Assembly: GCF_900142125.1 (NCBI RefSeq)
Contig: NZ_FQZT01000001.1
Coordinates: 62,001 to 126,000 of the forward strand
Source of the DNA: Malonomonas rubra DSM 5091
GTDB taxonomy: Bacteria > Desulfobacterota > Desulfuromonadia > Desulfuromonadales > Geopsychrobacteraceae
Direction of reading: 5' to 3'
Length of the DNA: 64,000 bases
In this document: piece after piece, positions 35,591 through 37,943 of the stretch
Position numbering within the stretch: position 1 is the first letter of the stretch
Layout of the letters: each line of letters begins with the position of its first letter
Made by a program: the position numbers and the translations under genes
The notes under the pieces: model-generated
The model's input: the letters and a program-made list of their open reading frames with translations, nothing else
Databases searched by the model: none
Told to the model about the DNA's origin: nothing

Positions 35591-35663
35591 ACTCACTGAT
35601 ATCACATAAATACTCGTCGACATCTTCCGATATTGGACCCGATGTCTAATGATATCAGTGAGT
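35591..35663. promoter_or_regulatory. Perfect 14-bp inverted repeat between divergent HTH and cytochrome genes
   Basis: ACTCACTGATATCA (35591-35604) and its exact complement TGATATCAGTGAGT (35650-35663), 45 bases apart. Each arm contains the palindrome TGATATCA; their centres are 53 bases apart, about five helical turns. GACATC (35619-35624) and GATGTC (35641-35646) form an inner pair. Probable operator set for the membrane HTH regulator. Confidence 0.7.
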
Positions 35664-35725
35664 AAACTATGAAAAGATTCAGTCAGCCACGAACTTTAAT
35701 CTAACCAGAAAACGAGGAGGTCATG

Positions 35726-36049
35726 ATGAGAAAAATGCTGACATTGTTTGTCGCCGTAGCGCTGGTGAGTGGTTTTGCTTTTGCAGCAATTGCACAAGAC
35801 AAAGGGCCAGCGGAAATCAAAATGCCGGTCAACATGGGTGATGTTACTTTCAGCCATGGAAAGCACCAGGAAATGGTCGGTGACTGCGCGATCTGCCACC
35901 ACACCGGTCTTGATGATCCAAGTTGCAAAAGTTGCCACGGTAGTAAGCCGGATGCCCCAAAAGCAAAAAAAGTTTTTCACAAGCTCTGTAAAGATTGTCA
36001 CAAAAAAGAAGCTGGCCCGACGAAGTGCAAAGAATGTCACATTAAATAA
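35726..36049 (+). CDS. Small periplasmic tetraheme cytochrome, c3 family
   Basis: 107 residues with a signal peptide (LTLFVAVALVSGFAFAAIA) and four CxxCH heme sites in the mature ~85 residues: CAICH, CKSCH, CKDCH and CKECH. Four extra histidines (FSH, GKH, CHH second His, VFH) can serve as distal ligands, which fits class III bis-His tetraheme c3 instead of the three-heme c7. I start at the second ATG, 5 bases after AGGAGG; the first ATG at 35723 is only 2 bases away. It likely shuttles electrons in the periplasm. The inverted repeat and HTH gene upstream suggest specific control. Confidence 0.9.
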   Translation: MRKMLTLFVAVALVSGFAFAAIAQDKGPAEIKMPVNMGDVTFSHGKHQEMVGDCAICHHTGLDDPSCKSCHGSKPDAPKAKKVFHKLCKDCHKKEAGPTKCKECHIK

Positions 36050-36070
36050 CCATTTAATATAATTAAAAAA

Positions 36071-36106
36071 AATCGGCTCCTTAATTTAAGGAGCCGATTT
36101 TTTTTT
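36071..36106. terminator. Bidirectional rho-independent terminator after cytochrome c3
   Basis: AATCGGCTCCTTAA and TTAAGGAGCCGATT form a 14-bp perfect stem, with A-run before and nine T residues after. Confidence 0.92.
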
Positions 36107-36167
36107 GCATACTGTTCTGACAGCAATATGTTTTTAAAATTATTTATAAAAAATTTCTTATTTTTAG

Positions 36168-36195
36168 TTGACATTAATAATTATTTATTTATAAT
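36168..36195 (+). promoter_or_regulatory. Consensus sigma-70 promoter for a small RNA
   Basis: TTGACA (36168-36173) and TATAAT (36190-36195), both perfect consensus, 16 bases apart, in an AT-rich setting, pointing at a terminator 70 bases downstream and at no gene. Confidence 0.8.
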
Positions 36196-36201
36196 CATAA
36201 A

Positions 36202-36277
36202 CACAAAGAGAAAACAAACTCTCTCTAAACCAACTTTTTGCCCCGTGTTCTCCCTCCTGACGCGGGGCTATTTTTTT
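36202..36277 (+). ncRNA. Candidate small RNA with anti-Shine-Dalgarno terminator loop
   Basis: From the expected start about 7 bases after the -10 box to the end of a T-run is about 76 bases, with no ORF of note. The 3' end is a strong terminator: GCCCCGTGTT (36240-36249) pairs with GACGCGGGGC (36259-36268), followed by TA and seven T. Its 9-base loop is CTCCCTCCT (36250-36258), complementary to AGGAGG ribosome sites. The 5' half is unstructured and contains CTCTCTCT. No known family recognised. It is transcribed convergently with the pyrophosphatase gene, whose stop is 11 bases beyond. Confidence 0.68.
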
Positions 36278-36287
36278 GCACTATCAC

Positions 36288-37943
36288 TCAACCCGCCTTA
36301 AAAACTTTCATCAAATGAGGCACCAACTGCTTTTTCCGTGACAGAACACCATCCAGCCGGTAAAGATTCTGATCCTGCTGAGGGTAACCCATGATGTAGG
36401 GAAGCTCGTTCGGCCCAGCTGTTAATAAAAGGCTTGTTTCCATCACGATATCGGTGACAAGCAAAGCCGCCAATTCATATCCCTTTTCATCTCTTATCGT
36501 CTTAAGTTCATTCTGCAGCTCAACATGGCGCTGGTAAAACGAATGGAAATTAACAACCTCCACCTGCCCTAATCCCAACAAATGATCTCCCACCGTATAT
36601 TCTTTAAAATCAGTCAAAAGAAGTTCACGTGCAGGTGCACCACTTGCCATCGGGCTACCGGAAGCAAACAGCTCACCACCAAACAACTGATGGTCAAGAC
36701 CTGATAAAGATTCAAGCCAAGGAACAAGTTGTCGATCGATTTCCGTTGTTGTTGGCGATTTGAGGATGACAGTATCAGACAACAGACCTGCAAGCATCAA
36801 TCCGGCAATTTTCGGTTGTGGATCGATCCCGGCCTGTTGGAAAAGAGTTGCCACCAGAGAACATGTACTGCCGAGCGGTTGATTGATGAAGCGTATCGGC
36901 GTATCAGTGTGAAAATTCCCCAACCGGTGATGATCAACAACCTCCAGTATTTCAACCTTTTCGGCACCAGGCACAGCCTGCGACAGTTCGTTATGATCGA
37001 CCAGCATCAATTTAACCGGCGAACTTTTGATCAAATGGCTTTTCGTCGCAATCCCCCAAACGCGCTCATCCGGCGAAACAACGATAGCCCCCGGATTCTT
37101 ACTATGAAGCAACTTCAACCGTAAATCATCGAGCAAATCATTGGGTGAAACCCGGAGAAAATCATCATCGACCAGCTCCCCGACAGGTGTCGCCATCCTC
37201 GTTAACCAGACACTGTTGGCCGTATCATAAGGACTGATCAGGATAGAAACACCTCTTTCCCGTGCTTCTTCGAGATATTCGGTCGAGATCTCCGACTTGC
37301 CGGAAACAATCAACAAGCGAACGCCTGCGTCGATCGCCATTTTCTGAATTCCGCTTCTGTCACCGGTAATCAGAATGGTCTTCTCCGGCACGATCTCTTC
37401 GACCCAGCGACTGAAACTCGCTTCACAACGAGCGCCGACGTAAAGATTAAAATTCTCAACCTGATCGGGCTCACGCAGATGATGTCCCGTTGCCGAAAGA
37501 CACTGCTGAATTGACGCCAACGATGCCCTGACACGGCGCAACTTATCCGGTTCGCTCGGCACCAGAAAAACTTCCGTAGCCGTCTTCAGCAACAGCATCC
37601 CTTTAGGATGAAACTCATCATCGACAACCGGCAACATGCGGATATGGTGTTTGTGATAGAGCTCAATCGCTTTGGACATCGGCGCAGATTCGTGGATTGT
37701 CACCACTTCCTCTGTTACCACATCTTTGATCCGTGGGTGGACATCAGAAAGACGTTCAGGCACGGGCATGTTCAACCGCTCAAGGACAAACTCAGTCTGC
37801 TGATTCAAGTTCCCGGCACGCGCCGGTTGAATATTCTCAACCCCCTGCAAACGCCGCAACTCGGAATAAGCGATGGCACTACAAATCGAATCGGTATCGG
37901 GGTTACGGTGTCCAACGACGTAAACCCTTGCGTTGTTCTTCAT
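36288..37943 (-). CDS. ppaC: Manganese-dependent inorganic pyrophosphatase with CBS and DRTGG domains
   Basis: 551 residues, family II PPase. The DHH catalytic part is split: VVGHRNPDTDSICSAIAY at the N-terminus and VVDHHRLGN near residue 337. Between them lie CBS motifs (VVTIHESAPMSKAIELY and AIVVSPDERVWGIAT) flanking a DRTGG domain (about 190-250, ILITGDRSGIQKMA). The DHHA2 domain closes the protein. CBS-PPases are inhibited by AMP/ADP and activated by ATP or diadenosine polyphosphates. Hydrolysing PPi drives the ligase and polymerase reactions of the cell. Monocistronic by position. Confidence 0.94.
   Translation of the reverse strand: MKNNARVYVVGHRNPDTDSICSAIAYSELRRLQGVENIQPARAGNLNQQTEFVLERLNMPVPERLSDVHPRIKDVVTEEVVTIHESAPMSKAIELYHKHHIRMLPVVDDEFHPKGMLLLKTATEVFLVPSEPDKLRRVRASLASIQQCLSATGHHLREPDQVENFNLYVGARCEASFSRWVEEIVPEKTILITGDRSGIQKMAIDAGVRLLIVSGKSEISTEYLEEARERGVSILISPYDTANSVWLTRMATPVGELVDDDFLRVSPNDLLDDLRLKLLHSKNPGAIVVSPDERVWGIATKSHLIKSSPVKLMLVDHNELSQAVPGAEKVEILEVVDHHRLGNFHTDTPIRFINQPLGSTCSLVATLFQQAGIDPQPKIAGLMLAGLLSDTVILKSPTTTEIDRQLVPWLESLSGLDHQLFGGELFASGSPMASGAPARELLLTDFKEYTVGDHLLGLGQVEVVNFHSFYQRHVELQNELKTIRDEKGYELAALLVTDIVMETSLLLTAGPNELPYIMGYPQQDQNLYRLDGVLSRKKQLVPHLMKVFKAG

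Follow-up and report, generated by a model that had tools for sequence, protein, structure and literature searches.

What kind of gene, if any, lies between the class III cytochrome c gene and the gene facing it in Malonomonas rubra DSM 5091? The locus belongs to the window, by which we mean the whole 64,000-nucleotide stretch of DNA that was analysed (NZ_FQZT01000001.1, positions 62,001 to 126,000); coordinates without a locus name are positions of the window. A preliminary description, made from the letters of the window, had read the intergenic element as a small RNA (sRNA) gene whose terminator loop is complementary to the Shine-Dalgarno sequence. We asked whether this anatomy holds, how widely it is conserved, and what the RNA would do.

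Anatomy of the element

The perfect-consensus promoter of the preliminary description was confirmed: TTGACA (36168-36173) and TATAAT (36190-36195) are separated by a 16-base spacer and match the sigma-70 consensus at 12 of 12 positions. The distance of 70 bases given from promoter to terminator is right when counted from the -35 box, which lies 72 bases before the stem, and wrong when counted from the end of the -10 box, where it is 44. There was also said to be no open reading frame between promoter and terminator, and indeed ATG is absent from 36202-36268; the only start-like triplets in this interval, TTG at 36238 and GTG at 36245, fall at or inside the hairpin. The ten-pair stem with its 9-base loop was recovered as GCCCCGTGTT[CTCCCTCCT]GACGCGGGGC (36240-36268, loop at 36250-36258), and the loop displays CUCCCUCCU, including the CCTCCT that had drawn attention to it. 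The features of the element are as follows.

36156..36167, plus strand: A/T-rich stretch, TTATTTTTAG-like, before the -35 box; conserved in an alignment of 26 copies and possibly an UP element
36168..36195, plus strand: sigma-70-type promoter TTGACA-16-TATAAT; 12/12 match, with TTGAC in 24/26 and TATAAT in 23/26 copies
36202..36276, plus strand: putative non-coding sRNA transcript of ~75 nt, both ends placed from the spacing of promoter and terminator
36219..36227, plus strand: pyrimidine-rich linker ACTCTCTCT; CUCUC in 21/26 copies, half paired in predictions
36240..36268, plus strand: intrinsic terminator stem-loop of 10 pairs, from the fold and covariation
36250..36258, plus strand: loop CTCCCTCCT, putative anti-Shine-Dalgarno seed; CCTCCT in 26/26 copies, CCUCC predicted unpaired at ≥ 0.95 in 26/26
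36269..36277, plus strand: terminator U tract TATTTTTTT, directly after the hairpin; likely an Hfq site

Folding the 86-nt strand gave -22.4 kcal/mol (z = -4.5), a value that none of 200 shuffles equalled. In the minimum-energy fold the stem is closed a little differently at its top than in the ten-pair drawing. The element is intergenic, with its own promoter and intrinsic terminator and without an open reading frame, as is required of an Hfq-dependent trans-acting sRNA.

Conservation within the bacterial family

A DNA query covering 36160-36282 was searched in 98 genomes, M. rubra included. At E ≤ 1 it matched in 73 of the 98, the weak matches being hairpin-only or chance. Sixteen copies in 15 other genomes could be followed over nearly the entire length of the query, at 92% to 78% identity. 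We aligned 26 copies from 25 genomes of a single bacterial family, over a span that begins upstream of the promoter and ends with the U tract (alignment A1). CCTCCT is kept in all 26 copies, TATAAT in 23, TTGAC in 24, the full TTGACA in 16, and CTCTC in 21. The CCTCC core of the loop is constant, whereas the bases adjacent to it vary among copies. In the predicted folds, the CCUCC core is unpaired at 0.95-1.0 in every one of the 26 copies, and the CUCUC linker is paired on average 0.51 in the 21 copies carrying it.

One genus, g5, keeps the promoter and hairpin with a different 5' part, which includes GCTCGACGGAGC in most copies. Six g5 copies were aligned separately, and the g5 copy L030, the stem of which is damaged, was excluded from the covariance model described below. 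Lack of conservation in related genomes had been named as grounds for abandoning the reading, and what we found is that promoter, stem pairing and C-rich loop are all conserved. An sRNA with an anti-Shine-Dalgarno loop is therefore well supported as the anatomy of this gene.

Spread of the hairpin over Desulfuromonadales

The preliminary description had also suggested a covariance search in Desulfuromonadales. Thirty hairpins of the family went into a covariance model, R1. They comprise 27 distinct rows, in which 99.3% of cells are paired and two-sided changes are already seen at two of the pairs. R1 matched 119 of 136 order genomes at E ≤ 0.01, amounting to 74 of 84 high-quality genomes and 49 of 53 genera, and the stem pairs covary. 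At E ≤ 1e-4, matches were found in 106 of the 136 order genomes versus 6 of ~292 phylum genomes outside the order (11 of 297 genomes in the phylum sample matched, five being order members, and the remainder was taken as ~292). Within the class, 138 of 277 genomes matched at E ≤ 1e-3, namely 112 order members and 26 others. This distribution marks the family as typical of Desulfuromonadales, with weaker matches in sister groups. No R1 match at E ≤ 0.01 was obtained in 17 of the 136 order genomes; complete genomes are among them, and therefore loss or divergence occurs. In the M. rubra genome the element scores 69.8 bits and the second match far lower, at 25.4 bits.

We quantified stem covariation on 75 matches from 64 loci chosen out of 252, which gave 72 distinct copies (A4). 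In this alignment, which is fitted to structure, 98.6% of cells pair versus 84.1% in shuffles, and two-sided, compensatory changes occur in 10 of 10 stem pairs versus 4.5 in shuffles. None of 500 shuffles attained any of five measures. The constancy of the loop among R1 matches is partly a product of selection by the model, because R1 includes the loop.

A fixed-pattern search of named genomes matched 42 stretches. The majority are labelled as Desulfuromusa, Malonomonas, Geopsychrobacter, Geothermobacter, Geoalkalibacter, Desulfuromonas or further members of Desulfuromonadales or Deltaproteobacteria; Desulfuromusa kysingii DSM 7343 is one strain that has the hairpin (L107). Outside these groups are contigs of Arthrobacter (two), Streptomyces (one) and Halorubrum (one), and two more bear the labels Chloroflexi and Desulfobacteraceae.

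Related sRNA families and other C-loop terminators

Tandem arrays of two or three such hairpins occur at several order loci, with three each at L033 and L042. A second sRNA family with its own promoter was found in the same bacterial family (alignment A5, 12 copies, L138-L154). Its 5' motif GTTGTGGCAGGC is present in 12/12 copies and ACCTCTC in 10/12, and it ends in a CCCTCC-loop terminator, with CCCTCC in the loop region of 12/12. A third family (alignment A6, 15 copies from f12, L158-L187) has a conserved TTGACATACCTGACnAAAAAGGTAATATAT-like promoter, ACCTCCT in 14/15 copies and CCTCC in the terminator of 15/15. Rfam returned nothing above threshold in 16 loci of related hairpins. Three f12 genomes hold 24, 24 and 14 R1 matches at E ≤ 0.01, the weakest of which may be chance; 30 of these 62 match places were fetched. 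The promoter region ACCTGACnAAAAAGGTAA of the A6 family looks like an operator, perhaps, we assume, that of an Rrf2/IscR-type repressor. The loop of L180, GATCACCTCCTGA, presumably repeats the 3' end of 16S rRNA.

Two other terminators of the M. rubra genome have C-rich loops. At L195:8062-8180 the hairpin CGCCGTCAAGG[ACCTCTCTCC]CCTTGACGGCG, followed by a long T run, lies 70 bases past TGGCATGCCGATTGCT, a perfect sigma-54-type box. The gene downstream looks to us like PtsP. This locus is a candidate sigma-54-driven C-loop sRNA. The second anti-Shine-Dalgarno terminator, GCCTCGGATCT[CCCCCCCCTCC]TGGTCCGAGGC (L081:1466-1540, identical to L189:4599-4673), lies 26 bases past the sigma-54-like box TGGCATAGTCCCTGCT; a multiheme cytochrome-like region is nearby.

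We tentatively raise the possibility that Desulfuromonadales share an anti-Shine-Dalgarno terminator-loop module, placed on several sRNA families with differing 5' parts and promoters that jointly mimic the 16S 3' end. Its inputs would comprise sigma-70 at the present element, the sigma-54-like boxes at the two C-rich-loop terminators of the same genome, and possibly an operator-covered promoter in the multi-copy family. If this were true, up to about two dozen loops per genome would form a translation brake, with a dose set by many inputs.

Comparison with known RNAs

RNAs with an anti-Shine-Dalgarno mode of action are known elsewhere, and, judged by its anatomy, the present family appears to work as they do. 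According to the available part of PMC10746234, NfeR1 (alpha-r14/ar14) has three hairpins with differing stems and CCUCCUCCC unpaired in each, silences ntrB at its start via anti-Shine-Dalgarno seeds, and is reported to be Hfq-independent. The window RNA is like alpha-r14/NfeR1 (RF02344) and the related 'cuckoo' or CcsR RNAs, which are mentioned in PMC10253847 (in part), in that its anti-Shine-Dalgarno motif is constant and predicted to be unpaired, on stems that vary. Unlike alpha-r14, which as far as these sources describe it is an alpha-proteobacterial RNA with three CCUCCUCCC hairpins, the window RNA carries a single hairpin of this kind, its terminator, with CUCCCUCCU in the loop.

No Rfam family reaches its threshold at the element, and no description of this sRNA family was found in open-licence PMC papers. 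The window copy is not matched by the ar14 model at E ≤ 1, and two order copies score below threshold (30.3 and 27 bits; gathering score 58.8). The best Rfam resemblance of order-level copies is to anti-hemB (RF02837, Burkholderia RNA 7), all matches of which fall short of the gathering score of 49.5 bits (37.8 bits at most); here too the window copy is not matched at E ≤ 1. CyaR (RF00112), an enterobacterial RNA with a C-rich anti-Shine-Dalgarno loop, is the only Rfam sRNA family that matches the window copy at E ≤ 1, below threshold (29.9 bits, gathering score 47, E 0.16). An Rfam identity was rejected, with ar14, anti-hemB and CyaR all under their gathering scores. A CsrA sponge of the CsrB/RsmZ type was also rejected: the loop of the plus-strand RNA is without GGA, and the RNA has one terminator hairpin.

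Mechanism and targets

The tip of the hairpin is complementary to the ribosome's gene-start signal, so it probably blocks the translation of some genes. We consider it probable that the element represents a trans-acting sRNA family of Desulfuromonadales, held by Hfq, the loop of which pairs with Shine-Dalgarno sites and blocks the 30S subunit. The strong sigma-70 promoter would give a transcript of ~75 nt that starts near 36202, with a pyrimidine-rich 5' linker (CUCUCUC) followed by an intrinsic terminator presenting CUCCCUCCU unpaired. Its U tail would be held by Hfq, and its loop would pair with purine-rich Shine-Dalgarno stretches, AGGAGGGAG as well as shorter or wobble forms, contacting the ribosome sites of mRNAs through CUCCCUCC. 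Such pairing would block 30S binding on a set of mRNAs. With the pairing site located in the terminator, the terminator would thus double as the seed. Hfq-bound sRNAs carry a U tail, and a Hfq gene (PF17209) is above cut-off in the M. rubra genome (E 2.0e-24) and in 124 of 136 order genomes. In our analysis Shine-Dalgarno masking is the likeliest mechanism, with specificity that would come from the bases flanking the core and perhaps from the linker.

We calculated pairing of the seed at 324 crudely called gene starts of the M. rubra genome. The true seed averaged -9.61 kcal/mol at these starts versus -7.12 for coding sequence. It had no advantage at the 324 starts over 100 shuffled seeds of the same composition (-9.39, sd 0.50). 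Since the shuffled seeds do as well, any C-rich seed favours starts, and the test lends specificity no support. The best predicted pairing in the sample was at L198:7443 on the minus strand (-20.9 kcal/mol).

The neighbouring cytochrome c3 gene had been put forward as one possible target. This gene is too short for the list of 324 starts, and its start was scored separately at -13.3 kcal/mol; 48 of the 324 sampled starts pair more strongly. Furthermore, the RNA persists where the cytochrome c3 gene was not found (it was detected at 18 of the 32 family loci, a set in which contig ends truncate some loci). On the strength of the 48 better starts, cytochrome c3 was rejected as a distinguished target.

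The exact complement of the loop was searched as AGGAGGGAG-N(2-10)-ATG in 10 genus genomes, yielding 18 matches (two of which are one site with two ATGs) versus 9 for the reversed pattern. The exact 9-base complement before an ATG is rare in these genomes. Four of the 18 matches, in four of the ten genomes (G003, G005, G006 and G007; loci L214, L215, L218 and L222), stand before one membrane-protein gene, with AGGAGGGAGAA, which has 11 bases of complementarity to the loop region of the sRNA. We take the gene to resemble NrfD/HybB; Pfam gave no match for the protein. It was traced in 25 loci, and its start was placed in 14, which do not include the own-genome copy, L233. The placed loci outside the genus keep the site in the form AGGAGGG, AGGAGG or GGGAGG. 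As the 3' end of the upstream frame is encoded by the same bases, the site is only a weak target lead.

The C-rich loop of a conserved sRNA could instead have another role: it might bind G-rich stretches in other parts of mRNAs, activate or stabilise its targets, or titrate a protein or a second RNA. The available part of PMC8295292 describes such a case in Helicobacter pylori, where the C/U-rich terminator loop of RepG pairs with a G-repeat of the tlpB leader, and where the outcome can be either repression or activation. The window RNA resembles RepG in having a C/U-rich terminator loop, which is predicted to be unpaired, and differs in that the known target of RepG in that source is a G-repeat, not a ribosome site, in a different phylum. 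Likewise, PmaR of A. tumefaciens acts mainly as an activator, through a C-rich loop other than an anti-Shine-Dalgarno sequence (PMC6234868, in part), and the outcome of the seed test at gene starts is in keeping with a role of this sort. However, the constant part of the loop is CCTCC, the complement of the Shine-Dalgarno core, with varying bases on its flanks, and both related families retain CCTCC in the loop as well (12/12 in A5 and 15/15 in A6). We regard another role as unlikely.

Neighbouring genes

The gene upstream encodes a class III cytochrome c (35723-36049, PF02085) and has its own terminator-like palindrome at 36065-36105. Downstream, a gene for a CBS/DRTGG/DHH/DHHA2 protein (36288-37943, minus strand) converges on the element; we call it ppaC on the assumption that it belongs with the family-II pyrophosphatases. 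A perfect 14-base inverted repeat, ACTCACTGATATCA / TGATATCAGTGAGT (35591-35604 and 35650-35663), lies between the cytochrome c3 gene and a divergent HTH gene and possibly provides operator sites for the HTH protein.

Using tblastn with five neighbour proteins, we surveyed 32 family and 11 order loci of ~3 kb or less each, some of the family loci ending at contig ends. Among the 32 family loci, ppaC adjoins the element in 22 and is convergent every time, a DUF255 gene adjoins in 4, and neither does in 6; the cytochrome c3 gene was found at 18 and the HTH gene at 21, in a set of which some loci are cut by contig ends. A DUF255 thioredoxin-like gene was present at 6 of the 11 order loci examined. 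DUF255 is codirectional with the element and downstream of it at all 10 loci that have the gene. The neighbours vary while the RNA persists, and therefore the element is a free-standing sRNA gene, as expected of one acting in trans; conservation of the unit regardless of neighbouring genes is also what an Hfq-dependent trans-acting sRNA calls for.

The arrangement with DUF255, at 4/32 family and 6/11 order loci, would suit an element that does not act in trans at all and is a conserved terminator, or a leader or attenuator controlling DUF255 where it is downstream. Yet ppaC is convergent at 22/32 family loci, that of the window included, so nothing lies downstream there to attenuate. Moreover, the cytochrome gene has its own terminator, and a conserved promoter stands between that palindrome and the hairpin. 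Control in cis is accordingly very unlikely.

On the minus strand no T run follows the hairpin, and hence the ppaC message may run through the whole sRNA antisense. It may extend to the two-way palindromic terminator at 36065-36105, in which case its 3' end, extended through 36065-36287, could bind the sRNA. Since the minus strand of the loop contains GGA and the ppaC message could traverse the element, one might look for the function on that strand, as a CsrA-sponge type of RNA (a AGGAGGGAG loop with GGA motifs) or as antisense pairing with the 3' end of ppaC mRNA. Against this, the promoter and T tract are conserved on the plus strand, and the RNA is found at 10/32 family loci without ppaC (some of them contig-cut), which makes a minus-strand function highly improbable.

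Is the element more than chance?

The loop 9-mer CTCCCTCCT occurs once in the window versus 0.47 expected. On its own it says little, because 40 of 100 shuffled windows also contain it. Scanning 464 kb of the 3.96-Mb M. rubra genome around the window returned 206 terminator-like sites, of which 105 have a loop of at least 6 bases; three of these loops are at least 60% C and none is at least 60% G. What sets the element apart from chance is conservation, with the family copies, the order-wide model matches and the stem covariation as the decisive evidence. A functionless coincidence of a strong terminator, a C-rich loop and a promoter-like site, which the shuffled windows might seem to invite, is already contradicted by that conservation and by the compensatory stem changes and is scarcely credible.

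Significance

Desulfuromonadales are mostly metal- and sulfur-reducing bacteria, and sRNA control in the order looks little studied. Among open-licence papers, we found none describing an sRNA in Desulfuromonadales; for Geobacter there are only predicted CsrB-type sRNAs, in a paper on CsrA (PMC11934962, in part). For this field, a family of sRNAs that spans the order and has a seed both fixed and testable provides a concrete object. The shared terminator-loop seed makes it possible to test whether a terminator loop can be a portable anti-ribosome-site module, and it raises the further question of how targets are chosen if a large proportion of gene starts can accommodate the seed.
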